A DNA stretch of 64,000 nt from Lutibacter flavus. GTDB taxonomy: Bacteria; Bacteroidota; Bacteroidia; Flavobacteriales; Flavobacteriaceae. Below, in pieces: positions 45,410 to 63,958 of the stretch. Location: the NCBI RefSeq assembly GCF_900188355.1, contig NZ_FZNX01000005.1, positions 124,001 to 188,000 of the forward strand. The letters run 5' to 3'. The notes beneath the pieces were generated by a model. That model saw only the letters and a program-made list of their open reading frames with translations. It ran no database searches and was not told the origin of the DNA. A program made the position numbers and the translations under genes. Position 1 is the stretch's first letter. The number at the start of each line of letters is the position of its first letter.

Positions 45410-46414
45410 TTATCTTTCAATAATTTCTTTTACTAAATTGGATTGACCTTTTCTTTTTTCACGATCTTTTTCGCTTAAATTTGAAGCGGCTATCTGTTTT
45501 AATAATTTATTTTCAACATTGAATTTTTCAATTTCATCTTCTGAATAAAAATTATCTCCTACTTCTGCTAAATATCTATTGTAATTCAATCTTAAAAGAG
45601 TCGACCCTGCAACATGTTCAAATATTTTAATTTGGTCATCACTCAATTCTTTTGAAAACTTATTAAAATTGTTTTTTATAATAGGTTGTGATAAATTTTC
45701 CCACATTTTGCCAGAATCTGCTGTAATATTAGATTCATTTGAACTATAGTAGGTTAACATGGAATTATTATAAGGCACTTTTAAAAAGTTACATAGTCGC
45801 TTTAAAACCCCCTCAGAGTCATTCAAAAGTTCTTCATAACTAATTAGGAAAACTCTACTATTTCCTAATTTTTCTTTCAATTGAACACATAAATCTTGTT
45901 CCTCTTTCCATTTTTTTGCTAAATGGTACATGTGTTTTTCTCCTACAATTGCCTTTCTAAAAGAAAGTGCAACATCTCTTCCATCACGATATAAATAAAT
46001 GTATAGAGGTTTTATCCCTGATTCTTCTATTTTATCAGCATAATGTATGTTCGACATACTTTTGCAACACCAATAAGTAGCCTTAGAAAAACTTGCCTTT
46101 AACTCATAGATTACTTTAAAAATCTCAATTAATGAGTTGGATTTGCAATATGATTTTATCTTAGTTCTATTTAATTGAAATCCTTCCCATGGTACTGGAT
46201 TTAATTCAACCAATTTGCAGATATCATCTATTAAATTATCAAAATTTCCCTCAATATTCAAGTCACCATACTTTGGTAACAACGGAAAGAATCTTTCTAA
46301 TATATGAGGTGGATGAGGTGCATCAACTTCACTAAGTTGATTAAGAATTACCCTTAATAAATTTGACCCAGATCTTTGTGTACCAATAATTTGTATTGAT
46401 TTTATTGTTTTCAT
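45410..46414 (-). CDS. PAPS-dependent sulfotransferase-family protein
   Basis: 334 residues. IQIIGTQRSGSNLLRVIL near the N-terminus is the 5'-phosphosulfate-binding P-loop of the sulfotransferase family, and YLYRDGRDVALSFRKAI is the 3'-phosphate-binding segment with Arg and Ser. The C-terminus is Lys/Glu-rich. No signal peptide, so cytoplasmic. It would transfer sulfate from PAPS to a hydroxyl or amino group; acceptor unknown. The ChrA-family gene ends directly before its start (0 bp gap), so the two are tightly coupled, which is unusual for a PUL. Confidence 0.85.
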   Translation of the reverse strand: MKTIKSIQIIGTQRSGSNLLRVILNQLSEVDAPHPPHILERFFPLLPKYGDLNIEGNFDNLIDDICKLVELNPVPWEGFQLNRTKIKSYCKSNSLIEIFKVIYELKASFSKATYWCCKSMSNIHYADKIEESGIKPLYIYLYRDGRDVALSFRKAIVGEKHMYHLAKKWKEEQDLCVQLKEKLGNSRVFLISYEELLNDSEGVLKRLCNFLKVPYNNSMLTYYSSNESNITADSGKMWENLSQPIIKNNFNKFSKELSDDQIKIFEHVAGSTLLRLNYNRYLAEVGDNFYSEDEIEKFNVENKLLKQIAASNLSEKDREKRKGQSNLVKEIIER

Positions 46415-47647: not shown

Positions 47648-47679
47648 TTATTTATAGAATTAACTTATTCATAATACTA

Positions 47680-49152
47680 TTAATTTGCAAAACTTGTATC
47701 ATATAGCATTTTAATATATTGAGTCCTATATGTTGAATATTCTAGCGGAATAATACCTAACAAACTCCCTTCACTATTTGTAAAAACTAATCTTTTCGTA
47801 TTTGTGCTACAGAAAATCACTAAACTATCATTAATATATTCTGCACTTCCTTGCGAATGTGTAAAATATTTATGTGGAAAATTGACAATTTTTAATGGGT
47901 GCACTTTCATTTTTATGGTATCCAATGAAAGTGTTAATAATCTAGAATGTGTGGTTTTATTAATATCTGAAATTTTTAAATTTCCTGAACTTTGAATATG
48001 CCCTGGTTTAAATCTCAAATTTCCGTTATCTAACAAAACTAATTCTCCATTTTCGTTAAACCTAATATTGTGTTGCCCAGAAAATACTGTATTTTCAGGC
48101 ATTTCAAAATCACTATTCAAGCCACCTAACTTCCATATTAATTCTCCCGTCTGTCCATTAATTTTCCATATCTGACTAATGTTTCTAAATGAGATGATAT
48201 AGTTTCCTTGTTTGTCTTTTGATAAAGAGTTGGCATGCAACCAATCTTTTTTACTTTTTAATATTTTTTTATCTTCTAATGGGTTCATTACGTCAAAGAC
48301 TGACCATTCCCAAACTTTTTCCCCATTATGATTTAAAACCATAATTCCATCTCCTTTTACAGTGTCTTTTTTTATGCCGCCTACAGAAGATAAATCAATT
48401 ATTCTTTCATCATAAACCAATGTAATAATGTTTCCATTTTCATCTAAATCAACTTCATGATGAAATAATTTATCAATTCCATTTTTACCAGTTTCTGCTT
48501 CAAATAAGATATTTCCAAATTTATCATATTCAATTATTTTATTTCCATTTGTAAAATGTAGCGTATCATTACTAAGAATACCCAACATTGTTTCATTTTT
48601 TGTCCATTTGGAAACCTTAAAATTTTGATTATTTCTTTGATAAGACACTAATTCTCCGTTGCCATTAATAATAAAAAGATAGCCTGGTACTTGTCTAGAA
48701 TGAAAATGTAAATATCCTTCAAAACCAACATTTGCCATACTATCTAAATTTTTAAAGTAAGGAACCCAAGGTGTTTTTACTGATGTTTTAAAGTGATACG
48801 TTTTACTGATTTTTTTTTGCTCTTCCTTTTGTACAATAACATTAAAAAAGTATTTAGTATTTAAATTTAAATCAACTAATATTAATTTATGTTGATTTGA
48901 ATCTTTTGATATTGGCGAATAAAATATAATGGAATCTTTTTCTTCTTTGTCAAGATATTTCCAATACCTAATATATGCATCTGTTCCTTCTGAAGTCGTA
49001 ACATTTATGTTTATCTTCAAGGCATTATCAGAAATTGATTTCATTTCAATTAATCCAATTTCACATTTATTTTTGGATTTCCCAGAAAAAAAACTACACG
49101 AGTGCATTACCAAAAGCAAACTCAATAAAAAAAATAAATTTTTCATAAACAT
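47680..49152 (-). CDS. Arylsulfotransferase (ASST)-family lipoprotein
   Basis: 490 residues (or 488 from M3). The signal ends LLVMHSC, a lipobox, so it is anchored in the cell envelope. A fibronectin-like N-terminal region (about 30-125) precedes a six-bladed propeller with the family motifs DWLHANSLSKD (H306), ISFRNISQIWKI (R323), SGQHNIRFNENGE (H361) and SRLLTL (R404). ASSTs move sulfate from a phenolic sulfate ester to an acceptor through a sulfo-histidine, without PAPS. Donor and acceptor are unknown. It lies between susD and chrA, separated from susD by a terminator-like hairpin. Confidence 0.85.
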   Translation of the reverse strand: MFMKNLFFLLSLLLVMHSCSFFSGKSKNKCEIGLIEMKSISDNALKININVTTSEGTDAYIRYWKYLDKEEKDSIIFYSPISKDSNQHKLILVDLNLNTKYFFNVIVQKEEQKKISKTYHFKTSVKTPWVPYFKNLDSMANVGFEGYLHFHSRQVPGYLFIINGNGELVSYQRNNQNFKVSKWTKNETMLGILSNDTLHFTNGNKIIEYDKFGNILFEAETGKNGIDKLFHHEVDLDENGNIITLVYDERIIDLSSVGGIKKDTVKGDGIMVLNHNGEKVWEWSVFDVMNPLEDKKILKSKKDWLHANSLSKDKQGNYIISFRNISQIWKINGQTGELIWKLGGLNSDFEMPENTVFSGQHNIRFNENGELVLLDNGNLRFKPGHIQSSGNLKISDINKTTHSRLLTLSLDTIKMKVHPLKIVNFPHKYFTHSQGSAEYINDSLVIFCSTNTKRLVFTNSEGSLLGIIPLEYSTYRTQYIKMLYDTSFAN

Positions 49153-49213: not shown

Positions 49214-50716
49214 CTAAAAATTATTTGAAGGGTTTGGTTCCATATTAGGATTCAAATCTAACTCCAAACGAGGAATTGGCATCAACTGATGGTTAACAGT
49301 TACATTTACAGGATATCCTTGATCACTTAAATATCGTGTCATTGTAGATTCAAATAAACCATGTCTTATCAAATCATCTTTTCTGTGACCTTCTCCTGCT
49401 AATTCTATTGCTCTTTCTTTAAGTACAGCATCTCTAAAATCTTCTTTACTTAAACCTGCTTGAAGATTGCCTAGCCCCGATCTGTTCCTTACTTGATTAA
49501 TAGCCTCGTAAGCTTCACCATTTGGACCATTTAATTCATTTTCAATATCAGCTTTTAAGAGTAATACATCTGCGTAACGTAATACCGGAACACCTAATTT
49601 GGATATACCATAGTTTTTATACGCATCATATCCAGTACCAGGTGCTGTTACGTCTCTATTATAATGTCCAAATTTTCTATTAATTGCAAATCCAAATTGA
49701 TCAATTGCGCTTCTTAGAGCACCTCCATATAATTGAGGGTAATCATCTAAATATACTTCTAATCTCTCATCACCTTCTTCTATTGTATTATATATTGTTG
49801 GAGGTAAACCAACATTAGCCCACCCTGTATCATAACTCCATGGTGTAAAAAACTTTACATGATGATTTGAAGCTGTACTATAAGATTCTCCCATAGATAA
49901 AATAGAAAAGATAAATTCATTGTCCAATATTTTTGATTCATAAAATAATTTCAAAAACGAATCTTCTGTGAATAAATCATAAACACCTAATGCTATAAGG
50001 GCATCAATATTTTCTCCTGCTTCAGCCCATTTTAATTGTCTTAATTGTGCTTTTGCCAATATTCCGTAAGCAGCACCTTTAGATGCACGACCAGGTGAGC
50101 TGCCATTAGCTGGTAAATTTGCAATTGCGAACTCAAGATCTTTTTCAATCTGAACATAGACATCACTTGCTGAACTTCTAGATAGACCAGGTATATCAGT
50201 TGTAGTAGGTTCAAGTTTTAACGGCACTCCACCAAACATACCAACCAAATCAAAATATGCCATTCCTCTCAAAAAAGAAGCTTCACCTAACAATTTGTTT
50301 TTTGTTCCAATTTCACCAAAATAACTATCATCCATCCCTTCAATTAACTGAAGAGCCCAGTTTGCTCTGTCAATTACCTTATATATACTTACCCAAATAG
50401 GAGCTACAATATTCTCATTACTCCATTGATATTTTTCCAATTCGGCATAATGGATATCGCTAATTTTGAATACATCAGTAATTCCATCTGTGGCACGAGC
50501 CATAACTCCAGCTCCGTAATATCCCCATCCGTCATCGAACATTCCATTATGAATGCCATCAATTAAAGCAATAGCATCACTTTCTGTAGTTAATGTTGAT
50601 ATGGAAAGATCTCCTTTTAATTCTTCTGTTAGATCATCATCACATGAACTTATTGTAATAAAAAACAATAAATACAGGCAAGTTTTGATAATTTTATTTA
50701 TTCTATTTATTTTCAT
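49214..50716 (-). CDS. susD: SusD/RagB-family glycan-binding lipoprotein
   Basis: 500 residues. The signal ends FITISSCDDDL, a lipobox with the acidic residues after Cys typical of surface-exposed Bacteroidota lipoproteins. TPR-like helices and the family segments GEASFLRGMAYFDLVGMFGGVPL and a C-terminal RVPVLRYADVLLLKAE-like stretch (GVPVLRYADVLLLKADIENE) identify SusD. It caps the SusC barrel and binds the glycan. It is 12 bp downstream of susC. Confidence 0.96.
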   Translation of the reverse strand: MKINRINKIIKTCLYLLFFITISSCDDDLTEELKGDLSISTLTTESDAIALIDGIHNGMFDDGWGYYGAGVMARATDGITDVFKISDIHYAELEKYQWSNENIVAPIWVSIYKVIDRANWALQLIEGMDDSYFGEIGTKNKLLGEASFLRGMAYFDLVGMFGGVPLKLEPTTTDIPGLSRSSASDVYVQIEKDLEFAIANLPANGSSPGRASKGAAYGILAKAQLRQLKWAEAGENIDALIALGVYDLFTEDSFLKLFYESKILDNEFIFSILSMGESYSTASNHHVKFFTPWSYDTGWANVGLPPTIYNTIEEGDERLEVYLDDYPQLYGGALRSAIDQFGFAINRKFGHYNRDVTAPGTGYDAYKNYGISKLGVPVLRYADVLLLKADIENELNGPNGEAYEAINQVRNRSGLGNLQAGLSKEDFRDAVLKERAIELAGEGHRKDDLIRHGLFESTMTRYLSDQGYPVNVTVNHQLMPIPRLELDLNPNMEPNPSNNF

Positions 50717-50728: not shown

Positions 50729-53700
50729 TTATATTCCTATTTTTAATCCTAAGCTAAATGATCGTTGATACGGATAAGAATAGGCATCAAGACCTGAAGC
50801 TACATTAAGATTTGTTCCGCCATTCCCCTTTGAATTTACCTCTGGATCAAATCCTGAATAACTATCCCAAGTTAATAAATTTAACCCTGTAACATTGATT
50901 TGCAGACTAGTTAAACCTATTTTTTCTAATGTTTTAGAATTAAAATTATAAGCCAAGCTTATGTTTTTCATTCTAACATATGAAGCATCTTCAATAAAAC
51001 GATCATTTACCCATCTATCCCCAGACCATAGCTTTTGTGGTAAAGTTCCTTCTAAATTATTAGGTGTCCAGCGTTCTTTTGCAATTTCTAAAGTATTGTA
51101 TTGATATCCTATTATATTATTACCATTGATTTTATCAACACCTACTACTCCAGCAAAAAATGCAGATAAAGTGAAATTTTTATAGCTAACTGAATTATTA
51201 AAACCGAATGTGTATTTAGGATATCCATTCCCTAAAACTTCTTTGTCATCAGCACTAATTACTCCATCTCCATTAAGATCTTTAAACAAAGGATCTCCAG
51301 GTTGTGCATTTGGTTGTGGTTCATATACATCTCCAGGTTGTAATATCCCTAAAAATCTATAACCATAAATAGAATTAATCGGCAATCCTTCTTTTAATAT
51401 TGTGTAAGATCCAAATACAGATCCATCAATTCTTGCTTGAGGTCCTTGCAAAAAGTCAATTCCTGCAGGTAAAATCAACTCTTTCACTTCATTTTCATTA
51501 TAGGCAATTGAAAAATTAGAATTCCAATTAAGACCAGATTTGAAATTGTGATTAAAGTTCAAGTTTAATTCAATCCCACTGTTTTGAACTTCACCTGAAT
51601 TGGTTAATATTGAACTAATACCATTTGAAGGCGGTAAGCTCTTTTGTAATAATAATTTTGAAGTATTATTTTTATAAGCGGCAATTTCCATAGTTAATTC
51701 ATCATTGAAAAATCCCATTTCAAGACCAAGATCAATTTTCTGAGTTTCTTCCCATTGTAAATCGCTATTTCCCACTCTTGATGAAATTGTTCCCATATCT
51801 AAATTAGCTCCGTCTGTTGTCACGGGAGCCGATGCGGAAAATGTGCTTTGACCAAGACCTACTCTAAATCGATCACTACCAGTAATTCCATAACTAGCTC
51901 TCAATTTTAAAGTTGAGATAGCATCGCTTTTAAAAAAGTCTTCATTATTAACCTTCCATGCGACAGCTGCTGCTGGAAAATTTCCCCATTTATTACCAGC
52001 TCCAAATTTTGATGATCCATCTCTTCTGAAAGTAAAGGTAAATAGGTATTTATCATCGTAAGAATAATTAATTCTTGACAAATAAGATATAAGTTCCGTA
52101 GAAGAAACATATGAAACTGGGGTTAAAGGAGTAGCTCCCGATTGTAGGCTGTAGTATCCTAAAGCATCTGTTGTGAAATCTTTAGCCCCAGCCGAGAAAT
52201 ATTCATTATCGCTCCACTCATGAGTTGCCCCAAGTATTGCATTTATGGTATGTTTATCAATAACTTTATCAAAACTAAGAACATTTTCAAAAGTATAATA
52301 TTTATACAAACCACTGTCTAAAGTTGCAGCACCAGGTTCTAATGATGAGGCTACTAAATTTGAATATGATGGTAAAAATCTTCTAACCTTTGAATTTGTA
52401 ACTCGAACACCTCCTTGTGTTTTAAATTTAAAGTCTTTTGAAATAGAAAAATCTAAAAATGCATTAGCTAGAACAAAATAATTACTTGATTTATTATCTG
52501 CAATATCTATTGATTGCAATGGATTTCCTGGTTTAGAGTCACCTCCAAAAATCAAAATTTTATCTAAATCTGATAATGTACTCCAAGCTTCTGATGTTGG
52601 AACTATTGGATTTGCCCTAAAAATTCCTCTTAATATATTATCCTGTAAAGAATTTCCTGAAAAACCAAGAAAGTTAGTTTCAGTTGTTGAAAGTGAAGTA
52701 TTGATACCAAACTTTAATTTACCATCTAATAAGTTTTGATCGGCATTCAAACGCACATTGTAACGGTCAAAAGACGTGTTTTTAACTACTCCATCCCATG
52801 AATAAGCACCAGCACTAAAGAAAAATTTAGTATCCTTTGAGCCGCCTTTAATTGATAATTGATGATCGCTTGTAGTTCCTGTTCTAAAGGCTTCATCCAT
52901 CCAATTTGTTTGTAATCCTAATGCATCAATTCTAGCTATTGCCTCCTGTGAATAAGTTGGTTGAAAACCACTTAGAACGTCTGTTTCATTTTTTATATTG
53001 GCATAATCAGCTCCATTAAGAAAATCATAAGCATTAACATCCACCTCATGTGTAGAATAACTCCCTGAATATGATATTATTGATTTTCCTTCCTTTCCTC
53101 TTTTTGTAGTAACAACAACAACACCATTAGCACCTCTTGTACCATAAATTGCAGTTGCAGATGCATCCTTTAAAATATTAATAGATTCAATATCCGATGG
53201 ATTAAGACTATTATCAAGGGATTCCATAGGAAACCCATCAACTACGTATAATGGACTGTTATTGCTGTTAACCGAATTATTACCTCTTATTCTAATTAAC
53301 ATTTCTCCTCCAGGTTCAGAACTAACTGTCGAAATTTGTACTCCTGGGGCTCTCCCTTGTATCAAATTTTCCACACCTGTCATAGGTCCCGTATTAAAAT
53401 CCTTTGTTGAAAGCACACTAACTGATCCTGTTAAATCTTTCTTTTTAACACTACCATAACCTATTACAATTTCATCTAACTGACTTATATCTGACGTCAG
53501 CACTACATTTAGCGTCGTTTGAGTAGTTAATGTAATCTCCCTAGATTTATAACCTAAAAATGAAATTAAAAGAACATCACCACTGGAAGCATTAATAGAA
53601 AAATTTCCATTAAAATCAGTTGAAACTCCTTTTGAAACTCCTTTAATTAGAATTGTAGCTCCAGGAAGTGGAACCCCATCTGAATCAGAAACTGTTCCTT

Positions 53701-53782
53701 TCACTTCTTTCTGCTGTGCTTGAATGGCAAAAGTCACTCCAAACAATAGTAGAAATAAAAATTTAAAAATTCTTTTTTTCAT
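50729..53782 (-). CDS. susC: SusC/RagA-family TonB-dependent outer-membrane transporter
   Basis: 1017 residues with a signal peptide (MKKRIFKFLFLLLFGVTFAIQAQ). A carboxypeptidase-regulatory-like domain (about 25-100; GTVSDSDGVPLPGATI), then a plug with the SusC signature NPSDIESINILKDASATAIYG and RGANGVVVVTTKRGK, then a 22-strand barrel. It imports oligosaccharides with SusD. A single predicted activator-dependent promoter lies 84-150 bp upstream. It is the first gene of the long minus-strand PUL operon. Confidence 0.97.
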   Translation of the reverse strand: MKKRIFKFLFLLLFGVTFAIQAQQKEVKGTVSDSDGVPLPGATILIKGVSKGVSTDFNGNFSINASSGDVLLISFLGYKSREITLTTQTTLNVVLTSDISQLDEIVIGYGSVKKKDLTGSVSVLSTKDFNTGPMTGVENLIQGRAPGVQISTVSSEPGGEMLIRIRGNNSVNSNNSPLYVVDGFPMESLDNSLNPSDIESINILKDASATAIYGTRGANGVVVVTTKRGKEGKSIISYSGSYSTHEVDVNAYDFLNGADYANIKNETDVLSGFQPTYSQEAIARIDALGLQTNWMDEAFRTGTTSDHQLSIKGGSKDTKFFFSAGAYSWDGVVKNTSFDRYNVRLNADQNLLDGKLKFGINTSLSTTETNFLGFSGNSLQDNILRGIFRANPIVPTSEAWSTLSDLDKILIFGGDSKPGNPLQSIDIADNKSSNYFVLANAFLDFSISKDFKFKTQGGVRVTNSKVRRFLPSYSNLVASSLEPGAATLDSGLYKYYTFENVLSFDKVIDKHTINAILGATHEWSDNEYFSAGAKDFTTDALGYYSLQSGATPLTPVSYVSSTELISYLSRINYSYDDKYLFTFTFRRDGSSKFGAGNKWGNFPAAAVAWKVNNEDFFKSDAISTLKLRASYGITGSDRFRVGLGQSTFSASAPVTTDGANLDMGTISSRVGNSDLQWEETQKIDLGLEMGFFNDELTMEIAAYKNNTSKLLLQKSLPPSNGISSILTNSGEVQNSGIELNLNFNHNFKSGLNWNSNFSIAYNENEVKELILPAGIDFLQGPQARIDGSVFGSYTILKEGLPINSIYGYRFLGILQPGDVYEPQPNAQPGDPLFKDLNGDGVISADDKEVLGNGYPKYTFGFNNSVSYKNFTLSAFFAGVVGVDKINGNNIIGYQYNTLEIAKERWTPNNLEGTLPQKLWSGDRWVNDRFIEDASYVRMKNISLAYNFNSKTLEKIGLTSLQINVTGLNLLTWDSYSGFDPEVNSKGNGGTNLNVASGLDAYSYPYQRSFSLGLKIGI

Positions 53783-53865: not shown

Positions 53866-53873
53866 CTAAATTA
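53866..53873 (-). promoter_or_regulatory. -7 box of susC promoter
   Basis: Reads TAATTTAG on the minus strand, one mismatch to TAnnTTTG, 18 bp downstream of operator copy A. No separate -33 element is evident; the operator occupies that place. Confidence 0.5.
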
Positions 53874-53891: not shown

Positions 53892-53932
53892 GAGGTGAAT
53901 ATTTTCTGCAATATGGTATTACATATTAATAA
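53892..53932 (-). promoter_or_regulatory. 41-bp operator motif, copy A (before susC)
   Basis: On the minus strand it begins TTATTAATATG, has ATATTGCAGAAAA in the middle and ends TCACCTC. It aligns without gaps to copies at 57962, 62483 and 63892; 27 of 41 columns are identical in all four by my count. It lies 110 bp before the susC ATG and 18 bp before a -7 box. Proposed binding site of the hybrid two-component regulator. Confidence 0.8.
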
Positions 53933-54241
53933 ATACGCTTTTTTTAGACTCTAATATCATATTTATATTAAATAATTGTCATTATTCATTAAAATCAAAA
54001 TAATTTAAATGTAAATATTATTTTAAGAATATGGAATTATTTTAAATATGATACAATTAAAAAACTCTTAAGAGAATGGAAATATATAAATATTGATATT
54101 TATTTTTAGTTCTTTTAAGAATTGGATTACTTTTTAATAGAGAAATCAATAGAAATTAAGCATAACTTAATCACTTAATTTTAAGCCAAGAATAAACATT
54201 GTTAGTGTGTGAAGTTTGCTAAGTTTATTACAACTTTAAGC
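53933..54241. other. Spacer upstream of the susC promoter
   Basis: About 310 bp, extremely AT-rich, between the susC promoter and the end of the GH16 gene. I see no gene, RNA or convincing terminator in it. Confidence 0.5.
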
Positions 54242-55117
54242 TTATTTATTTGGTTCAATAGTTTCTATTTTAACCCAATCAATAAGCATGGTATGGGTCC
54301 CTGACCAATTCAATGATCCAGTCCAATTCATTTGGCGAAATCCCATTATTACACCTGATGGGCCATCAGGAACCGGAGAATTTATTGTTTGTTGGAGTAC
54401 ATTATCGATATAAAAATCAATTCTGCCGTTCCTTTTATCCCCGCCAGGGAAATGGAGCCAATCAATGGTATAAGTATGGAAACGATCATCATTGAGAGAG
54501 AATTTTCTTCCATTACTATCAGCAACCGGCTTTTTAAAAGAAGCTTCTGGCATATAATCAGTTAGGCTTGAATTACTCCATGAATTAAAACGAGCATCCG
54601 TCCATCCATCAGGTGGGTCTGTTTGATGACCCACCTGTAAGGTACCTGTATCATCAGGCACAATTTCAATATCAATTTCGTCAAAAGTAGTGTCTTCATT
54701 GTATGTGAATATAAATCCACCCACTCCAGATACGGCAAGACCTTTTGCAAACATTTCCAGGCGATGGCCTGGTCCTATATTTTTGAATGATATGGTTTGA
54801 AAAGGAAATGTGTCATCGGTATCATTTTCAGTATCGGAATCAATTGTAATATAGGCATAACCATCTCCGGGCACAAAATCTTCCCATTTTTGTTGATTTG
54901 GATACATATCATTTACAAAAGACCATTCAAAACCAACATCTGATAAGGGCTTCCCTGGTTTATCAAACTCCTCAAACATGATGATTTGAGATTCAAATTC
55001 ATTCGATATCTCCTTGTTGTTGGTGTCTTCATTCTTGCAACTTATAAATAACAGGAAGCACAAAATAGATGTGACATGAACTAAATGGCAATTGTATATT
55101 TTTAAATGATGATACAT
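54242..55117 (-). CDS. GH16-like family lipoprotein
   Basis: 291 residues. The signal ends LCFLLFISC, a lipobox. A concanavalin-like beta sandwich carries FDEIDIEIV, where E147, D149 and E151 form the ExDxE catalytic signature of GH16 (nucleophile, assisting Asp, acid/base). HTYTIDWLHFPGG and IDFYIDNVLQQTI are typical later strands. GH16 enzymes are endo-acting on beta-galactans, laminarins and related glycans, including keratan-type chains in some subfamilies; the substrate here is unknown. It is third in the operon GH20, GH20-like, GH16 (20 bp gap). Confidence 0.82.
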   Translation of the reverse strand: MYHHLKIYNCHLVHVTSILCFLLFISCKNEDTNNKEISNEFESQIIMFEEFDKPGKPLSDVGFEWSFVNDMYPNQQKWEDFVPGDGYAYITIDSDTENDTDDTFPFQTISFKNIGPGHRLEMFAKGLAVSGVGGFIFTYNEDTTFDEIDIEIVPDDTGTLQVGHQTDPPDGWTDARFNSWSNSSLTDYMPEASFKKPVADSNGRKFSLNDDRFHTYTIDWLHFPGGDKRNGRIDFYIDNVLQQTINSPVPDGPSGVIMGFRQMNWTGSLNWSGTHTMLIDWVKIETIEPNK

Positions 55118-55137
55118 ATTATTATTTCTTTAAATGC

Positions 55138-56112
55138 TCATTTTATAAATTTAAATCTATCTATATGGCTTAACAATATCTCTCTATTTTCATCTGAGCA
55201 CTTTATCCATTTAGTAAACAAAAATCCATCTCCGCCTTCATTTTTCATAACTTCATCCCATTTTTCAATTCGCTCAAGATTATCGCCTGGAGCTACCCAA
55301 ACCTCAAAGCCAAAATTTGTTAATCGTTGCACAAGATCTCTGTGCACCAAGTCATAATCCCACACCACATGTGTAATATCTTTAGGCAAATCTGGTTCGG
55401 CTGCCTTCATTTTATCCGCATGTACTTGTGCAATAACATCGCGATTCTCATAGGCGGTATCATTCCATACTATAGTCTGAAGCCCTTTATTTTTAAGGTA
55501 GTCATGAAAAAATTTAATGGTTTCCACATACTGGGTTAAGGATCTGTGGTGGTCCTCATCCATACCAATGTGAAAATAGTTATTAGGCTTACATACATTT
55601 ATAATCTCATCCATTACCTCTAACGCAACCTTTCTGTAATCGTCTCGTTTGCTAACAAAATTAAGCTCATCCCAGTGAGGGTATAGCCATTTGTCATGCA
55701 AATTTCTTCCGCTTCTTGAAAAATTTAATTTAGGAATAAAGTCAATCCCCAATTCTCTGGCTCTATCTGCGAATTGTTTTAGGTCATCCATTGGGACACT
55801 GTAATTCCGAGTTAATTCCGGATGTGAATTATATATTACGCCATCTGCAATATCTAATATGACAGTATTAAATCCCGATTCTTTCATATTATTCAGAATT
55901 GCTAAACCTACCTCTAAAGAGAAAGGTGGCTCAGATTCTTTTCTTATGTTCCAAGAAGGATCGTAATGTGCCATGTGCAAAAGAAACGCTTTTACTTTTG
56001 GTTTTTCAAATAGATGAGCCTCCTTACTGCTTGATACTTGTTCGCCCTTAGAATTCAAAGTATTAAAACAAATCAGTGTAGAGAGCGTAAAAATCAGTAT
56101 GAAGTATTTCAT
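55138..56112 (-). CDS. Small GH20-related TIM-barrel protein with HIGMDE motif
   Basis: 324 residues with a signal peptide (MKYFILIFTLSTLICFNTLNS). It is essentially a bare TIM barrel: VKAFLLHMAHYDPSWNI, GFNTVILDIADG, ELGIDFIPKLNFSRSG, then FHIGMDEDHHRS with D185-E186. The catalytic Asp-Glu pair of GH20 is kept but the second Gly of HxGGDE is Met, and no GH20b domain exists. It may be a divergent hexosaminidase or a new branch of the GH20 clan. It lies between the GH16 and GH20 genes in one operon. Confidence 0.68.
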   Translation of the reverse strand: MKYFILIFTLSTLICFNTLNSKGEQVSSSKEAHLFEKPKVKAFLLHMAHYDPSWNIRKESEPPFSLEVGLAILNNMKESGFNTVILDIADGVIYNSHPELTRNYSVPMDDLKQFADRARELGIDFIPKLNFSRSGRNLHDKWLYPHWDELNFVSKRDDYRKVALEVMDEIINVCKPNNYFHIGMDEDHHRSLTQYVETIKFFHDYLKNKGLQTIVWNDTAYENRDVIAQVHADKMKAAEPDLPKDITHVVWDYDLVHRDLVQRLTNFGFEVWVAPGDNLERIEKWDEVMKNEGGDGFLFTKWIKCSDENREILLSHIDRFKFIK

Positions 56113-56211
56113 AATAGTTAGTAATTAATTGTTTTCTTAATCAGAATATTTTTTCATTTGAGTAGGTAGATAATATTAAGAATGCAGGTTATCTGAATTT
56201 TTAAGTTCTGA

Positions 56212-57864
56212 TTATTTTTTCACCTCATCATTTACTACCGAGGAATCTGGAGCATAATAAATACTTCTTTGCTCCCAAATTTTTTGTAAACTCTTTAGTC
56301 TTAACTTAAAATTATCAAAATTTTTATTTTCTTTTTTGGTCCATCCAACTTCTGCATAAGCAGCTATTCTTGGAAATACTAAAAATTGCATTTCGCCATT
56401 TGTTGGAATCCATTCACTCCACATTTGACAGCCCAAACCAATTACCTTGTCGTAGTATTTAGGATCAAGATTATCTGGAATAGGATCGAAAGCATATGCT
56501 TTTGACAATGGCAGAGTCTTATAATTATAATCTAAGTAAGTGTTTGAATGTAAAGAATTTACAATTTCATAACCATTACTGGCAGCTTCTATTAGTAGCG
56601 ATATATCGCCTTTCCAGAAATGAATAATTGTTCCCTTTGCCAATTCTTGACCCAACGCTATATTATCTTCAGATTCCTGATAAGAATGTAGCTGATGACC
56701 CATTATTTCGTTCCATCCCATCATATGTCTTCCTTTACTCTCCAAATATTTTGAAATTCTATTTGTAAAGAAAACCTGCAATTCAGCTGGCGTAGCCAAT
56801 TTGTTTTCTTTCAAGTAGGTTTGCACAGTATCAGAATTTTTCCAATGAGTGTACTTTACTTCATCTCCACCTATATGGATTACTTTGGATGGAAATAAAT
56901 CCATAACTTCATCAAGTACATCTGTTAGGAATTGATAAACTTTAGGATCGCTAATATCATATACTTCCTCACTAACACCAAATTTAATTGGTACTTCAAT
57001 TTCTTTTTTAGTAGTGCCTAACCAAGAATAAGAAGCAATAGCGGCCGTTGCATGTCCAGGCATTTCAATTTCTGGCACTATGGTTATATGTCTTTCCGAA
57101 GCATATTTAACAATCTCTTTTATTTCATTTTGAGTATAAAAACCGCTATGTGATTCAGCAGATTGAATAGGGCTATCCCAAAGTAAAGGCCCAACTTGGG
57201 TGCTTGCTCTAGTGGAGCCAATTTCTGTAAGCAATGGGTATTTTTTAATTTCTATCCTCCATCCCTGATCATCTACCAAATGCCAATGAAAAACGTTCAT
57301 TTTTAATCGAGCCATTTCATCTAAAAGCATTTTCACCTGTTTCATTCCTTTAAAATATCTGGCTTCATCAAGCATAAATGCACGCCAAGAAAATCTTGGG
57401 GCATCTTTAATTTTAACTTTAGGAATGTTAATAGATGTGCCTTCTAATAGAGATGAACCAAAGCTTTCCGGAAATAATTGCTTTAAACTTTGAATTCCAT
57501 AAAACCAACCAGTATTAGTGGAAGCTATAATTTGTATACCATTTTTAGATACGTCAAGTTCGTAGCTCTCTTTTTCAAGTTCTGAGTTTTGCTTAAATAT
57601 GATACTTCCAGAATGCTGTTTATTTGATTGAACAGTTACTATTTTACTACCTAACCCATTTTGAATAAATTCTTGTAATATGATTGCTTCATGCTTGCTT
57701 TCAGCCAAATACAAAATCTCTGTTTGACTATTAATTGTAAAAACACCTTTTCCAATAATGAGCTCTTGTGGCTGTGGAATAATATTAATATTGGATTGTG
57801 CTAATAAGTTTGAAACTGCCATTAGATAAAAGATACCTATCAGGGATATGTATTTGATTTTCAT
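56212..57864 (-). CDS. GH20 beta-N-acetylhexosaminidase
   Basis: 550 residues from the ATG at 57864, which gives a clean signal peptide (MKIKYISLIGIFYLMAVSNLLAQ); the frame runs 39 codons further upstream, which is unlikely since it would include the promoter. GH20b domain, then FSWRAFMLDEARYF and HWHLVDDQGWRIEIKKYP. Catalytic D334-E335 lie in HIGGDEVKYTHW. It is the first gene of the operon driven from operator copy B and a second classical GH20 beside the lipoprotein at 39304. Confidence 0.95.
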   Translation of the reverse strand: MKIKYISLIGIFYLMAVSNLLAQSNINIIPQPQELIIGKGVFTINSQTEILYLAESKHEAIILQEFIQNGLGSKIVTVQSNKQHSGSIIFKQNSELEKESYELDVSKNGIQIIASTNTGWFYGIQSLKQLFPESFGSSLLEGTSINIPKVKIKDAPRFSWRAFMLDEARYFKGMKQVKMLLDEMARLKMNVFHWHLVDDQGWRIEIKKYPLLTEIGSTRASTQVGPLLWDSPIQSAESHSGFYTQNEIKEIVKYASERHITIVPEIEMPGHATAAIASYSWLGTTKKEIEVPIKFGVSEEVYDISDPKVYQFLTDVLDEVMDLFPSKVIHIGGDEVKYTHWKNSDTVQTYLKENKLATPAELQVFFTNRISKYLESKGRHMMGWNEIMGHQLHSYQESEDNIALGQELAKGTIIHFWKGDISLLIEAASNGYEIVNSLHSNTYLDYNYKTLPLSKAYAFDPIPDNLDPKYYDKVIGLGCQMWSEWIPTNGEMQFLVFPRIAAYAEVGWTKKENKNFDNFKLRLKSLQKIWEQRSIYYAPDSSVVNDEVKK

Positions 57865-57935
57865 GTTATTGTTATTTATTTGATTAATCGTGGTTTTGAA
57901 AACTAATTTGCACACACAACATAGAATTCTCTTAA

Positions 57936-57943
57936 CAATATTA
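57936..57943 (-). promoter_or_regulatory. -7 box of the GH20-GH16 operon
   Basis: Reads TAATATTG on the minus strand, one mismatch to TAnnTTTG, 18 bp downstream of operator copy B. It lies 71 bp before the ATG at 57864, which supports that start over the longer frame. Confidence 0.5.
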
Positions 57944-57961
57944 CATTCAATCTTATTACAA

Positions 57962-58002
57962 TAGGTAAATATTTTCTGCAATAACGTATGATATATTAGT
58001 AA
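57962..58002 (-). promoter_or_regulatory. 41-bp operator motif, copy B (before GH20)
   Basis: On the minus strand it begins TTACTAATATA, has TTATTGCAGAAAA in the middle and ends TTACCTA. It lies 98 bp before the GH20 start and 110 bp before the ATG of the divergent regulator gene, so it could also serve autoregulation. Confidence 0.8.
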
Positions 58003-58112
58003 AATACCATTTTATAGCAACTCAAATAGAAATAAATGTTAAAATAGTATTAATAATTTGTGAACTCAAAAGAATAAGTCATATTATTGCGAAATAATTG
58101 TTTTCTTCAAAA

Positions 58113-61100
58113 ATGACAAAATCATATTTAATTTTCCTATTCATTATAATTAATATCATTAATTTAAGAAGTCAGAATAATGTTAATTTTTCACATTTGT
58201 CTCCCAAAACAGATAGTGGGTACCGGATGATAAAAAACACGGTTGAGGACCGTTTAGGGTATGTCTGGATGTCACAAGATACAGGAATTTTAAAATTTGA
58301 TGGTTATGAATATTGGTTTGATTCGATTGATTCTATTTTTAATAAAAAAGAAATTAAAGATGCCATAGAAAGAATAGAAATAGATTCAAAAGGAAATATC
58401 TTAATTCTTTCGAGAAATGGATTACTTGCCAGAAGAGAAATCAATGGAAATTATACTCAACTAAATTACTTGTTTTCTGAATCAGATAAGATTGTTTTAG
58501 TTAATAAAATCTTTACAATTAAAAATCAAGTTTGGTTGACAGATTATTTAGGAACCATTTACCTAGAAAATAAAATCACTTCTAAATTTGATAGCATTAC
58601 AACTATTCCAAATATTAAATTCACTAAAACTGAAATAGTAGATTTTGAAATTACAAAAAATAACGATCTTATAATAAGCACAAATATTGGAGTACTTTAT
58701 AAATATTCAAAAGCTAAAGATAAATTACATGAAATAAAAGGCCCCTTTAATAAATATCCTGGTATCCTTTATCTAACCTTAGGAAAAAATGATGATTTAT
58801 GGATTGGTTCAGAATACATGGGTTTATTTCAATATAATCAGGCTGAAAATAAATTCATTCAACATTCATATTATCAAGATAATGTGGATATTTTAGCTAA
58901 GGATATGATATTGGCTCTTTATTGTGATAGTGAAGGGATTGTTTGGGCAGGCTCAGATGGAGAAGGGTTATATCGTATTAATCCGAGTAACGGAGAAATA
59001 ATGCTTTTTAAACATAATTCTTTTGATCAATACGCTCTAAGCAGTAATTCTATTATTAACATAAATGAAGATTCCAATAATAACTTATGGGTAATCACAA
59101 ATTATGGAGACATTAATATACTCCCAAATTATGAAAATAATATTTATCATCATAAAGGTTCCATAAAAAATATATCAGCAAGAGTATTGTCAGTTTTTAA
59201 AGATTCCAATAATAATCTTTGGATAGGAACAGATGGTAAAGGATTGACAAAAACAAACCTTACAACAGGTAGTGAAAATCAATTTTTAAATATTAAAAAC
59301 TCTCTCGAAGGTGATTATATTCAATCAATTATAGAAGATGAAAATGGTAATATCTGGATTGGTTCTTATAAAAATGGATTATGGTTTTATAACTCAAAAA
59401 CAAAGGGTATTTCTAAAATACCGATTTCTAACTCTAAAGGAATTCAAGCCACCGACGTTTTAACAATATTTAATGATTCAAAAGGCAGAATTTGGGCGGG
59501 GTCTGATATTGGTTTATACCTTTATAATTCTAAAAAAGAAAAAATAGCCTCTTTTCCCTTTGATGAGAAGGGACTTTTTGGTGATTTGGTTAGGTGCATT
59601 GTTGAGGATTCCGATAACAATATTTGGATAGGTATGGATAGAGGTGGTCTTTTTAAATTTAATGAAAAGCAAATCTTTGTAGATTCCAATTTTCAAAGAT
59701 TTCAATATGCCAAAGAAATCAATCAAGTAGCTGAAGATTATTCAATTACTTCTATGGCAGCTGATACTAAAAAAGGAATTTGGATAGTAAATTCTCTAGG
59801 CGAACTTTTTTATTATAACACTATTAATCAAATATTTAAAGAATATAAGGACTATGAATCTTTTAAAAATGTTACTTTCCAAACTGTATTAATGGAAGAT
59901 GAAAATAACCTTTGGCTAAGCTCTACTCATGGTCTATGGAATTATAATATTAAGGATTCAATCATAAAAAACTATTATAGGACAGATGGCTTTCAGAACG
60001 ATTATTATATTAAGAGGAGTGCCTTTAAAGACAAGTCTGGTTTTCTTTATTTTGGCGGCATGAATGGTGTGAATGGCTTTAATCCTAATGATATTTCAAA
60101 AGTTCCTATCATTTCTCAGCTACACATAAATTCAATTGAAGTCCTTAACAAATCAGCATCCTCATTAATTCCAGAACAAGTTAAAAATGGGATAGAACAA
60201 GTAAAACGGTTAGACTTAAACTATAATCAATCATCATTTTCCTTTCGTTTTTCCTCAATAGGAACTATTTTAAATTCGAATTATTTTTATGCCTACAGAT
60301 TGAAAGGTTTTAATGATGAATGGAAAATTACTCAAAATGAGCGAATAGCTACTTATACTAATATTCCTCCGGGGGATTACACTTTTGAAGTAAAAGCGGC
60401 AACTAAAAATGGAAATTGGGATATTCCGGTAAAAACCATCCAAATTAAAGTTCACCCTCCAATTTGGAACCACCCTTTAGCATATTTATTATATTTCATT
60501 ATGTTCTGTGTTGTCATTTATAGTATTTATAGATGGGTTAAGCTTAGAAAAAATTTACTTCTACAAAAATTAAAAAATAACCAAGAAAAAGAAATCTATG
60601 CTGAGAAAATGAACTTTTTTTCAAAAATGTCTCATGAAATTCAGACACCATTAACCTTAATTTTAAGCCCTATTGAAAAAATGCTTACAAATTCAGAGGA
60701 AAAGGGAGATTTATTATTAACCCAACGATTAAAAATTATATCCAATAATGCAAAACGCCTTTCAAGGATTGCCAATGAACTCACAACAATTAGAAATAAG
60801 GAAATAGGTCAATTAAAGTTAAAAGTTTCTAAAAAGGATATTATAAAAGAAATAAAAGAGATTGCTGAATCATTTACTGAGCAGGCACGATTTAAAAAAA
60901 TTGATTTTGAGCAAAAGAATTTTGAGGAATCATTTAAATTGTGGTTTGATATTGAACTCTTTGAACATATTATTTATAATCTACTTTCAAATGCATTTAA
61001 ATTCACTCCACGTGAAGGGAAAATCAAGCTTGAAACAAAATTAAATATCGAAAAAAGTATGTTTATGATTTCAATTGCGGATTCTGGACTTGGAATTTCA

Positions 61101-62195
61101 AAAGAAGAACATGCCAATGTTTTTAAATTATTTTATAGAACTAATAAAGGGAAAAAATTTAGAGGAACTGGAATTGGATTGGCACTTGTAAAAGAATTGA
61201 TTGATCTTCATAAAGGGAAAATAATTATTAATTCCGAACGAAATAAAGGTACAGAATTCATTGTGTATTTACCTTTGAATAAATCAAAATATTCTAAAAA
61301 AGAAATAGTTAATTGTGAAAAAAAACCAATTAGCGAATTAAAAACAAGCTTAAAACAACCGCTTGAGTTAGCTCAAATTGAAAATTCAAAATATAGTAAA
61401 TCAACACTTTTAATTGTAGAAGATAATTTTGAAATGCAAAATTTTTTACATGATATATTTCGTAATAATTATAAAATACTTTTGGCTGACAATGGAGCTG
61501 AAGGACTAGCTATTGCCAAAAAAGAGCAGCCAAATATTATAATTTCTGACATTTCAATGCCAATTATGAATGGTTTGGAAATGTGTGAAAACCTACAAAA
61601 TAATAATGAAACTTCTCACATACCAATAATATTGTTAACTGCAAAAAATACAACCGAAACTAAATTAAAAGGATTGGAATATGGTGCAATTGAATTTATT
61701 AGAAAACCATTTGACATTAAAGAACTGCAGTTAAAAACTCATAATATTTTGGCATCACATGAGAAGGCTTTTTCTAATTTTACTTCTCAGTACATTAGCA
61801 CTCCTGAACAAAGTAATTCAAAATCAAAAGATATCCTCTTTTTGGAAAAATTAATTGGAATCTTAAATTCTGAATTAGGAAATGCTGAATTCAAATTAGA
61901 AAACCTTTCTGAAACATTGAATATGAGTTATTCATCTCTTTATAGGAAATGTCAAAATTTAACAGGAAAAACAATAGTTGATTTATTTCGGTTAATGCGT
62001 CTGAAAAAAGCTGCTATTTTAATTTGTAAAGATGGCTATTCAATTTCAGAAGCCTGTTTTGAAGTTGGTTTTAATGATCCTAAGTACTTTTCAAAATCTT
62101 TTAAAGTACATTTCAAAAAAACACCAACTAATTTTAAAAAAGAAGCTGAAAATTCGGATTTAGATTCTTTTTTAACCAAATATGAACTAATATAA
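58113..62195 (+). CDS. Hybrid two-component system sensor/AraC regulator (HTCS)
   Basis: 1360 residues from the ATG at 58113. A signal peptide is followed by two seven-bladed-type propeller regions of repeated LWIG/WIG strands (about 30-680), a Y_Y_Y domain (about 690-780), and one membrane helix (about 788-810). The kinase core follows: HisKA with H841 in SHEIQTP, ATPase motifs NLLSNAFKF, DSGLGIS and GTGIGLALV, a receiver with D1146 in ISDISMPIMNG, and a C-terminal AraC domain (about 1250-1350; GFNDPKYFSKSFK). It senses periplasmic oligosaccharide and activates the PUL. It is divergent from the GH20 operon. Confidence 0.96.
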   Translation: MTKSYLIFLFIIINIINLRSQNNVNFSHLSPKTDSGYRMIKNTVEDRLGYVWMSQDTGILKFDGYEYWFDSIDSIFNKKEIKDAIERIEIDSKGNILILSRNGLLARREINGNYTQLNYLFSESDKIVLVNKIFTIKNQVWLTDYLGTIYLENKITSKFDSITTIPNIKFTKTEIVDFEITKNNDLIISTNIGVLYKYSKAKDKLHEIKGPFNKYPGILYLTLGKNDDLWIGSEYMGLFQYNQAENKFIQHSYYQDNVDILAKDMILALYCDSEGIVWAGSDGEGLYRINPSNGEIMLFKHNSFDQYALSSNSIININEDSNNNLWVITNYGDINILPNYENNIYHHKGSIKNISARVLSVFKDSNNNLWIGTDGKGLTKTNLTTGSENQFLNIKNSLEGDYIQSIIEDENGNIWIGSYKNGLWFYNSKTKGISKIPISNSKGIQATDVLTIFNDSKGRIWAGSDIGLYLYNSKKEKIASFPFDEKGLFGDLVRCIVEDSDNNIWIGMDRGGLFKFNEKQIFVDSNFQRFQYAKEINQVAEDYSITSMAADTKKGIWIVNSLGELFYYNTINQIFKEYKDYESFKNVTFQTVLMEDENNLWLSSTHGLWNYNIKDSIIKNYYRTDGFQNDYYIKRSAFKDKSGFLYFGGMNGVNGFNPNDISKVPIISQLHINSIEVLNKSASSLIPEQVKNGIEQVKRLDLNYNQSSFSFRFSSIGTILNSNYFYAYRLKGFNDEWKITQNERIATYTNIPPGDYTFEVKAATKNGNWDIPVKTIQIKVHPPIWNHPLAYLLYFIMFCVVIYSIYRWVKLRKNLLLQKLKNNQEKEIYAEKMNFFSKMSHEIQTPLTLILSPIEKMLTNSEEKGDLLLTQRLKIISNNAKRLSRIANELTTIRNKEIGQLKLKVSKKDIIKEIKEIAESFTEQARFKKIDFEQKNFEESFKLWFDIELFEHIIYNLLSNAFKFTPREGKIKLETKLNIEKSMFMISIADSGLGISKEEHANVFKLFYRTNKGKKFRGTGIGLALVKELIDLHKGKIIINSERNKGTEFIVYLPLNKSKYSKKEIVNCEKKPISELKTSLKQPLELAQIENSKYSKSTLLIVEDNFEMQNFLHDIFRNNYKILLADNGAEGLAIAKKEQPNIIISDISMPIMNGLEMCENLQNNNETSHIPIILLTAKNTTETKLKGLEYGAIEFIRKPFDIKELQLKTHNILASHEKAFSNFTSQYISTPEQSNSKSKDILFLEKLIGILNSELGNAEFKLENLSETLNMSYSSLYRKCQNLTGKTIVDLFRLMRLKKAAILICKDGYSISEACFEVGFNDPKYFSKSFKVHFKKTPTNFKKEAENSDLDSFLTKYELI

Positions 62196-62482
62196 AATTT
62201 GAAATATTATTGATACCTCCTGTTTTCTTGCAATCATATAGAAAGTGCTTTTCCAAACATGCCACTTTTCATGACGAAAAATTTGATTTACAAAAAATAT
62301 TTTTTTCTATTTTAAAATAATTACTAAAGAAATAAAATATATCTCTATAAAAGCTATTCATAATTATCTATCCAAATCATTATTTCAATATTTGGAGAAC
62401 ATGTAAAATAATATCAAATTAACTCAAATTACACGGTACTGGTTAATATTAAATTCTACAAGAATTAATAATAGATACAAAC
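62196..62482. other. Spacer upstream of operator copy C
   Basis: No gene. An AAAGTG/CACTTT stem with a long loop near 62240-62265 might be a weak terminator for the regulator gene. From about 62443 the sequence is duplicated before the right edge of the window (see the repeat entry). Confidence 0.5.
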
Positions 62483-62523
62483 TCACTAATATGCCCTACC
62501 ATATTGCAGAAAATATCCACCTG
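62483..62523 (+). promoter_or_regulatory. 41-bp operator motif, copy C (before the last GH16-like gene)
   Basis: Begins TCACTAATATG, has ATATTGCAGAAAA in the middle and ends CCACCTG, 99 bp before the ATG at 62622. An exact -7 box, TACTTTTG, follows 17 bp downstream. Confidence 0.82.
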
Positions 62524-62540
62524 TCTTAATGCTATATTTA

Positions 62541-62548
62541 TACTTTTG
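62541..62548 (+). promoter_or_regulatory. -7 box of the gene at 62622
   Basis: TACTTTTG is an exact TAnnTTTG match, 17 bp after operator copy C and 73 bp before the start codon. Confidence 0.6.
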
Positions 62549-62621
62549 TAAAGAAAATTACAGCTTAATTTTACTTAAGTTTAATTTTTAAATTTTATAC
62601 TAATTTATAGGATATAGCAAA

Positions 62622-63389
62622 ATGAAAAATATTATAATTTATAATCAACCAAATAAAACTTCTAATCTGAAAAATTTAATCAGATTTTTTGGGTTTGTAA
62701 TTTTTGCATTGTCTGTTCCCGGTTGCTCATACAATACATATAGTATAGTTGAATTTGAAAAACCAATTAAATACATTAATGATTATACCCGTTGGGATTT
62801 TGAAACACTTTACGGATGGGTTGATGGTTCCCAAAACATGAACGAAGTAATTAATTATAATGGGAATGGAGTCTTAAACATTTATACCAGAGCCAATACT
62901 TGGGATCGACCAAAAATCAGGACTAAAGATAGAATATACAATACAGGAAAATACTCCTGGAGAGTTTTTGTTCCAGAAATGGGCGTTGGAGATATGACAA
63001 GTATAGGAGCTTTTCTCTATTTTGATGAATCACACGAATTGGATTTTGAAATTGGTTATGGAACGTCTGCTGTTCGCCAAAATCTAAATGCAACAATTGA
63101 TGATTTGATTGTATATACTACTTCACAAGGTAATCCATACAATACTGCTAAGCATAAAATAAAGAGAAATCAATGGTACACTTTAGAGATTGAATTACTA
63201 GTTGTAAATGGAAAATATCAAGCAGTATGGTCTATTGATAATTCTGAATTGGTTCGATTAGATCTTTCATATGGTAGCTCAATTCCTTTTTATATTTTTT
63301 GTAGTGTAGAAAACTTAACTTTTTTAGGAGATCATATACCACATCAAGATAACTATGCGCTTTTTGATTATGTAGAATTCTCTAAATGA
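62622..63389 (+). CDS. GH16-like concanavalin-fold lipoprotein
   Basis: 255 residues. A hydrophobic segment after about 20 polar residues ends LSVPGCS, a probable lipobox with a rather long n-region. The beta-sandwich domain has KYSWRVFVPEMG, then SHELDFEIGYG, where E139, D141 and E143 form an ExDxE pattern like GH16. WYTLEIELLVVNGKY and LFDYVEF resemble late GH16 strands. It may be a hydrolase or a binding protein derived from one. It has its own predicted regulator-controlled promoter (operator C). Confidence 0.7.
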   Translation: MKNIIIYNQPNKTSNLKNLIRFFGFVIFALSVPGCSYNTYSIVEFEKPIKYINDYTRWDFETLYGWVDGSQNMNEVINYNGNGVLNIYTRANTWDRPKIRTKDRIYNTGKYSWRVFVPEMGVGDMTSIGAFLYFDESHELDFEIGYGTSAVRQNLNATIDDLIVYTTSQGNPYNTAKHKIKRNQWYTLEIELLVVNGKYQAVWSIDNSELVRLDLSYGSSIPFYIFCSVENLTFLGDHIPHQDNYALFDYVEFSK

Positions 63390-63852
63390 TAAAACTCCTA
63401 GTTTCAATAATCCATTTTTAGACACAACCTTGATGATCCAAAAAAATATTTAAAATAATTTCATTATCGGACCGTAATATATTCTTTAATAAAATATTTT
63501 AAACATTGGTTTAAACAAGCGATCTACGATGTAATAGAGAAGTAGGATCCAAGCAAATATAATTTTATTAAAATTCTCTTATAGAAACAAATTCACCTAT
63601 CATTAGTGAGGTAAATAAGCAAGCAAATTACACTAAAAGGAAGAATTGGAAACTTGTTAAATAGTTGACTCCTTAGTTGCACTATAGAATTCATAAAATA
63701 AAATGGATAATTTATGGCTAATGTAGCCGTAATTCAAAAGAACAAGCCTATTCTGGCTGTAGTTTATAAACTGTTTAGTAAAAAATAAACCAACTTATTT
63801 TTAGGAAAGTATATCGCATTTTAAAACCAACGCTAAGTGTGCATAATTCAAA
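63390..63852. other. Noncoding stretch with a possible transposase tail remnant
   Basis: About 460 bp without a convincing gene. A 24-codon frame at 63714-63788, starting MANVAVIQKNKPILAV, slightly resembles the C-terminal end of IS110-type transposases, but it is short and isolated. Confidence 0.3.
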
Positions 63853-63891
63853 TTAATATTAAATTCTATAAGAGTCAATAAAATAAGAATT

Positions 63892-63932
63892 TTACTAATA
63901 TGACCTACTATATCGCAGAAAACACCCACCTA
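63892..63932 (+). promoter_or_regulatory. 41-bp operator motif, copy D (right edge)
   Basis: Begins TTACTAATATG, has ATATCGCAGAAAA in the middle and ends CCACCTA. TAGGTTTG, an exact -7 box, follows 18 bp later at 63951-63958. No gene starts before the window ends; by analogy with the other copies its start codon should lie near 64030. Confidence 0.82.
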
Positions 63933-63950
63933 TTTTAAGGAGGTTATTTA

Positions 63951-63958
63951 TAGGTTTG
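63951..63958 (+). promoter_or_regulatory. -7 box at the right edge
   Basis: TAGGTTTG is an exact TAnnTTTG match 18 bp downstream of operator copy D, predicting rightward transcription out of the window. Confidence 0.6.

Follow-up and report, generated by a model that had tools for sequence, protein, structure and literature searches.

The window, that is, the entire 64,000-nucleotide stretch of contig NZ_FZNX01000005.1 of Lutibacter flavus (Flavobacteriaceae) analysed here, contains a polysaccharide utilization locus (PUL) with a susCD pair, glycoside hydrolase (GH) genes and a gene encoding a hybrid two-component system (HTCS) regulator. Four copies of a 41-bp element, denoted A to D, lie in this locus, all four upstream of PUL genes and near the HTCS gene (Table 1). 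This element, a predicted operator of the HTCS, is the subject of the present analysis.

Table 1 Coordinates of the element copies, -7-like boxes and genes of the PUL in the window
Feature	Position	Strand	Remarks
Operator copy A (predicted)	53892..53932	-	Upstream of susC; 4-copy match, rank 1 in 42 kb with other-genera matrices
Copy A half-sites	about 53919-53932 and 53897-53910	-	22-bp direct repeat
-7-like box of susC promoter (A), TAATTTAG	53866..53873	-	5/6 consensus bases; gap 18 bp
Operator copy B (predicted)	57962..58002	-	Precedes the GH20-GH16 unit; divergent HTCS gene on its other side
-7-like box (B), TAATATTG	57936..57943	-	5/6; gap 18 bp
Operator copy C (predicted)	62483..62523	+	Upstream of X1
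-7-like box (C), TACTTTTG	62541..62548	+	6/6; gap 17 bp
Operator copy D (predicted)	63892..63932	+	Upstream of paralog X2, outside the window
-7-like box (D), TAGGTTTG	63951..63958	+	6/6; gap 18 bp
susC-type TonB-dependent transporter	50729..53782	-	First gene of A unit; TIGR04056, 872 bits
susD-type lipoprotein	49214..50716	-	PF07980
Probable remainder of A unit	41188..49152	-	Same strand, short gaps
ASST-type arylsulfotransferase	47680-49152	-	A unit
Chromate-efflux-family ChrA-like protein	46415-47647	-	A unit
Sulfotransferase family protein	45410-46414	-	A unit
Sugar MFS transporter, NagP-like	44037-45365	-	A unit
Glucosamine-6-P deaminase-like protein	42067-44052	-	A unit
BadF/BcrA ATPase-family protein	41188-42045	-	A unit; weak match below cut-off
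B unit (GH20, GH20-like, GH16)	54242..57864	-
GH20	56212-57864	-	B unit; family match; ATG start
GH20-like	55138-56112	-	B unit; below cut-off
GH16	54242-55117	-	B unit
HTCS (proposed binder)	58113..62195	+	Reg_prop propeller, Y_Y_Y, HisKA, HATPase, receiver with SHIP, AraC-type HTH_18
X1, GH16-like putative lipoprotein	62622..63389	+	255 aa; HELDFEIGYG invariant in 7 aligned sequences
Decayed remnant resembling 5' part of cysQ	63559..63767	+	Inside tandem duplication; 156/212 columns identical to downstream cysQ-cysC gene

Copies, half-sites and promoter spacing of the element

The four copies are located at the positions and on the strands given for them in an earlier note on this DNA, and their ungapped alignment agrees with that note, with 27 of the 41 columns invariant and a pairwise identity of 31–34 positions out of 41. 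A matrix built from the four copies scores them at 51.5–60.7 bits, values that are circular for A–D themselves but informative for the gap to the next place: the runner-up on both strands of the window scores 3.7 bits, a gap of more than 47 bits. Start codons follow after 109 bp (A), 97 bp (B), 98 bp (C) and 91 bp (D, measured in the flanking sequence).

The element is confined to one place in the genome. The search covered the whole assembly (3,888,341 bases in 8 contigs, 99.98% complete); a 36-position pattern with up to 3 mismatches retrieved A–D only, its reversed control yielded 0 matches, and a sequence-only profile at E<=0.1, the filters of which lose weak matches, likewise retrieved A–D only. 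Neither search detected a further copy in the 3.9-Mb genome at these thresholds, so that the whole-genome search proposed in the earlier note places the element at the PUL and at no unrelated locations.

Internally, the 41-bp element consists of two half-sites 22 bp apart, which refines its previous description as a single core. Among the offsets compared (16–28 bp), the halves match best at 22 bp, with a fraction of 0.449 identical vs 0.338 at 21 bp and 0.298 at 23 bp (permutation p 0.0004, uncorrected for the number of offsets examined); the best inverted-repeat center reached 0.39 over 10 pairs, a value listed without a null comparison.

Each copy is followed, at a distance of 17–18 bp, by a TAnnTTTG-type box that is exact at C and D and carries one mismatch at A and B, just as had been described. 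Across the set of 21 sites from the window clade and other genera (see below), a box with at least five of the six consensus bases is found 17–19 bp past the element in 18, compared with a mean of 0.34 of the 21 sites at each other offset. The consensus is that of the Bacteroidetes sigma-ABfr promoters, which, according to the consulted part of PMC7366714, combine TAnnTTTG at -7 with TTTG at -33. The sites differ from those promoters in the second element: TTTG is absent 14–25 bp before the box from all four window sites and is present in that interval at 2 of the 21 sites overall. The earlier note took this as a sign that the operator replaces the -33 element at an activator-dependent promoter. 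The lack of TTTG at the four sites stands, but as an indication of activator dependence it is weak and nothing special because no general -33 motif was identified in Flavobacterium johnsoniae either, as stated in the same part of PMC7366714. The weight is carried by the fixed 17–19 bp spacing between the element and the box across genera rather than by the missing -33 element.

Occurrence in related genomes

In a set of 60 genomes, which contained the genome under study and comprised 37 from a single genus, further strong matches were found only in the same-genus genome G027, where three sites at 32–47 bits precede susC, GH20 and X1 and the HTCS is 84% identical; matches in the other genomes did not exceed 18 bits. 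At two of the three G027 sites, the motif is better conserved than its upstream flank, namely, 40/41 vs 67/92 positions (downstream, 58/70) at A and 34/41 vs 28/91 (downstream, 42/69) at C. Between C and D, 34/41 positions are identical in the motif vs 57/93 upstream and 41/72 downstream.

Outside this clade, de novo pairing of upstream regions within a locus yielded counterparts in G201 (before susC and a gene for an 828-aa protein) and in G073 (before susC and the X2 ortholog). A de novo motif obtained from regions that still held start codons reflected only the coding similarity of a neighboring gene; it was rejected, and the search was redone on trimmed regions, which yielded the matrix of 23 other loci described below. 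The loci of G201, G073 and G179 carry sites, two of which precede other genes (828 and 379 aa). A matrix of 11 sites, 7 from the window clade and the 4 from G201 and G073, was then applied to four loci that had not contributed to it (Flavivirga jejuensis, an uncultured Formosa, Formosa algae and Algibacter miyuki), each of which gave two top matches. Each of these eight matches precedes a susC, X2, NagP, GH20 or ChrA gene, and their scores are 14.8–31.1 bits vs 10.8 for the best other place in these loci. In Formosa algae, both the susC site and its -7 box fit the pattern. Thirty runs with a shuffled 20-kb locus gave best scores with a mean of 9.2 and a maximum of 20.0, so that the weakest of the eight matches are not significant by score alone. 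The best score in two Arenibacter loci (HTCS 38–39% identical, short upstream stretches) was 5.4 with the same matrix.

Two controls address circularity. In a clade-by-clade hold-out, 19 of the 21 sites still ranked as high as expected for their own locus; a matrix of the 14 sites from other genera ranks A–D first to fourth in 42 kb, at 22.7–27.8 bits vs 6.6 for the next place (simulated maximum 17.9, 20 runs). A stricter matrix, derived only from the four sites that had been obtained de novo in G201 and G073, again ranks A–D first to fourth in 42 kb (20.4, 18.9, 16.5 and 14.5 vs 9.6) and places the site pairs of Flavivirga, Algibacter and G179 at ranks 1–2. Left outside the 21-site set were the best match in L070 of G296 (15.5 bits), L085 (18.6) and L086 (27.0), as well as other 9–15-bit matches in the distant clade, L036 and L094.

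We then compared the distribution of the motif and of the HTCS among 397 family genomes (own included). A profile, R2, gave matches at E<=1e-6 in five (G000, G073, G179, G201 and G392), and the HTCS search found six with at least 53% identity, namely, the same five and G296, the next reaching at most 47%; that is, the motif is present at this threshold in 5 of the 6 genomes with such an HTCS and in 0 of the 391 others. Because R2 derives from the 21 sites, it is not blind for G000, G073, G179 and G201, and its strict filters may lose weak sites. G392 contains two strong matches, but its DNA is about 98% identical to that of the Algibacter locus L100 across 3 kb, so that it provides no independent test. 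Five further genomes had one match each (E 3.0e-4 to 8.4e-4), of which only that in G308 is next to an HTCS homolog; none of the sequences surrounding the other four resembles the window proteins. Thus, the search of related Flavobacteriaceae suggested in the earlier note recovered strong matches only together with a close HTCS ortholog (5 of 397 genomes), the exception being G296, which has the ortholog and no clear site.

Traces of the same arrangement extend to more distant homologs. In 19 loci with an HTCS of 40–47% identity, searched with the 21-site matrix (of which the -7 box is not part) and without refitting, the box lies at 18 or 19 bp in 14 of the 19 best places facing away from the HTCS gene and in 0 of the 19 facing toward it; after refitting, the counts are 16/18 and 0/17, respectively. 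The chance of a box at two adjacent spacings, from nine other loci, is 0.025. Of 25 column-permuted starting matrices, four arrived at 14–16 sites with the box at one pair of adjacent spacings and the rest at 1–9; some of these remaining starts had likelihoods (about 255) equal to the lowest of those four. Taken together, the distant loci suggest that the predicted operator and its spacing are inherited with this group of HTCSs, beyond this PUL alone. In the loci L072–L090, further motif-like places are oriented toward the HTCS gene itself and lack a box at 18/19 bp; after refitting, 5 of 17 have one at 49/50 bp, and these places may represent a second operator or autoregulation.

The adjacent HTCS and other candidate explanations

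The HTCS at 58113 is, as previously claimed, the sole AraC-type regulator in the window, where 1 of the 21 HTH_18 domains of the genome is found. A single chain combines PF07494, PF07495, PF00512, PF02518, PF00072 and PF12833, that is, a sensor, HisKA, HATPase, a receiver and an AraC-type HTH domain. The receiver contains SHIP at residue 1173 (in the frame starting at 58098), matching the S/CHIP portion of the S/CHIP-DK motif of contact between the receiver and the DNA-binding domain; in the consulted part of PMC11253607, receiver motifs of this type are tied to phosphorylation-gated DNA binding. The confinement of the element to this PUL and its recurrence before PUL genes in genomes with a close HTCS ortholog support the proposal, made in the earlier note, of an HTCS operator defining a local regulon, and judging by these comparisons, the 41-bp element is very probably the operator through which the adjacent HTCS activates that regulon.

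The form of the element fits this assignment. For 16 HTCSs of Bacteroides thetaiotaomicron, the predicted operators are direct repeats averaging 21 bp, interpreted there as bound by dimers on one helix face (PMC3878776, part consulted). The element described here resembles them in being a two-site direct repeat located before PUL operons near the HTCS gene and conserved with orthologous regulators; it differs in coming from a non-Bacteroides family, in its 22-bp spacing and probably in its half-site sequence, as well as in the fixed 17–19 bp distance between element and -7 box, on which the consulted parts of that paper are silent. By most testable features, the element would belong to the HTCS operators, an ordinary type of control in these bacteria. 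In the parts consulted of the open-access literature (including PMC12125979 and PMC10994844), we recognised no description of this operator or of a fixed spacing between an HTCS operator and the box.

From this architecture, we infer binding and activation as follows. The periplasmic propeller would sense an oligosaccharide, probably one containing N-acetylglucosamine (GlcNAc); the kinase would phosphorylate the receiver of the same chain, and the AraC-type domain would thereby be freed. A dimer would then occupy both half-sites, which read approximately TTACTAATAT and TGCAGAAAAT in the window and are spaced by 22 bp on the same face of the DNA. Because the TAnnTTTG box follows shortly after the inner half-site, at the fixed 17–19 bp, the HTCS could recruit RNA polymerase to promoters that lack the -33 TTTG. 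The regulon would comprise four units: susCD with the sulfur-transfer and GlcNAc-catabolism genes, the GH20-GH16 unit, and the two tandemly duplicated GH16-like genes.

Several observations weigh against this interpretation. Copies C and D are duplicates and hence not independent: C with X1 and D with X2 form a single tandem duplication of promoter and gene (866 of 1,152 alignment columns identical), and because both lie in one duplicated stretch, the number of independent copies is about three rather than four. G296, with an HTCS of 54% identity, lacks a clear site, the top scores in its two stretches being 7.6 and 9.2 bits, and de novo upstream pairing in G179 and G296 gave no counterpart. 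A good -7 box is lacking at three X2 sites (G073 and two Formosa loci), and the X2 sites of the two Formosa loci are also those that failed the hold-out (ranks 8 and 3). Held-out scores of 12.6, 13.8, 14.2 and 18.3 in other loci are inside the simulated range, and the hold-out is not fully blind in that 10 of the 14 sites were first picked with a matrix containing the window clade. Under the four-site de novo matrix, the rank of the third G027 site is only 4 (9.4 bits), and column-permuted versions of that matrix reached a mean of 11.8 and, in one case, 20.9 in 20 runs over 42 kb. A matrix learned de novo from 23 other loci, which is not main evidence, gives a blurred picture, with the window copies at ranks 2, 3, 6 and 8; on ten stretches beside distant HTCS homologs (L058–L067), its scores of 0.8–13.1 overlap those of the window copies (9.3–13.3), such that there is no clean separation. 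Finally, the presence of the PUL genes that co-occur with the motif is confounded with that of the HTCS.

Three alternatives were considered. The HTCS could use the operator for repression without glycan rather than for activation, and indeed, the consulted part of PMC11253607 reports that certain HTCSs whose contact residues deviate repress their own PULs. This HTCS, in contrast, has SHIP, which is associated there with phosphorylation-dependent binding, and the site lies upstream of the -7 box, not over it, in 18 of the 21 sites; we consider repression improbable.

The co-occurrence of the motif with PUL genes means that the HTCS is not the sole correlated gene, and with 21 HTH_18 matches in the genome, the PUL could be controlled by another DNA-binding protein, either a different AraC-type regulator or a global one. 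Sites elsewhere would be expected for a global regulator, and none was found in the genome at the thresholds given above, whereas for a different AraC-type regulator, the only HTH_18 domain in the window is that of the HTCS. Furthermore, the sites occur at the HTCS locus in relatives of differing gene content, a related site, again with this promoter spacing, accompanies distant HTCS homologs with different neighbors, and the 22-bp direct repeat has the form of HTCS operators, all of which makes another regulator quite improbable.

The copies might also resemble one another because promoters were copied (by duplication or gene conversion), with no selection for a binding site, as is suggested by the C/D duplication, which includes a gene and part of cysQ, and by site B of G027, where the motif (37/41) is hardly better conserved than the upstream flank (77/92; downstream, 55/69), a further point against an HTCS operator; such a relic is, however, highly improbable given that the motif outlasts the upstream flank at A and C of G027 and precedes unrelated genes (susC, GH20, NagP and X1) in several genera at the same distance from the -7 box.

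Gene content and biological meaning of the predicted regulon

Beyond susCD, the genes of the A unit are on the same strand and separated by short gaps, from which we infer that they are cotranscribed; the extents of the operons would follow from this arrangement. The GH20, NagP-like and deaminase genes point to a GlcNAc-containing glycan as the substrate of the PUL. To the right of copy D, the gene order is X2, cysQ-cysC, cysD and further genes, such that the gene predicted in the earlier note to lie beyond the window exists in the flanking sequence, at 64024-64785 in extended coordinates; it is X2, a paralog of the gene after C, with a protein 76% identical to X1.

X1 has no match in Pfam, NCBIfam or PDB sequences. 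In a fold search with a low-confidence model (mean pLDDT 59.6), the top PDB matches were GH16 enzymes, at TM-scores of 0.3–0.4, and galectins matched as well. Together with the ELDFE motif, which we take to be GH16-like, this search provides a lead to a GH16-like protein. The putative lipoprotein family of X1 and X2 recurs near the HTCS in several genera.

This GlcNAc-type PUL includes genes for an ASST-type arylsulfotransferase, a sulfotransferase and a ChrA-like protein (45410-49152), with cysQ-cysC and cysD nearby (extended 65070-68574, L005:5070-8574). The sulfotransferase and ChrA-like genes suggest that sulfate is somehow involved; in Flavivirga (L097), ChrA- and sulfotransferase-like genes are also found downstream of the motif. 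The APS-kinase match of the neighboring cysQ-cysC gene is incomplete, and one frame at extended 67489-68574 (L005:7489-8574) fuses an N-terminal, cysN-like GTPase part with a GH30-like segment and is followed immediately by a full GH30 gene. The sulfate-activation cluster thus seems to be rearranged compared with L101, a locus whose HTCS is 84% identical and which has a 420-aa cysN-like gene.

HTCSs are major regulators of PULs in Bacteroidetes, and the predicted operators in the literature consulted come from gut Bacteroides. Here, an operator and a regulon are predicted, and a promoter spacing is derived, from one genome and its relatives, and this spacing seemingly carries over to distant HTCS homologs. 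The conserved operator-to-box spacing is the newest part of this picture, the remainder being a solid regulon prediction of a known type that can be traced across related genera. The chances are about even that the HTCS promoters of the family obey one rigid grammar, in which a 22-bp repeat ends 17–19 bp before TAnnTTTG and replaces the -33 contact, with the use of a GlcNAc glycan coupled in this PUL to sulfotransferases and a chromate/sulfate-exporter-like protein. If this is the case, knowing the regulator and the spacing would suffice to read HTCS targets from any family genome, which would help to assign target genes, and hence glycans, to uncharacterised flavobacterial HTCSs.

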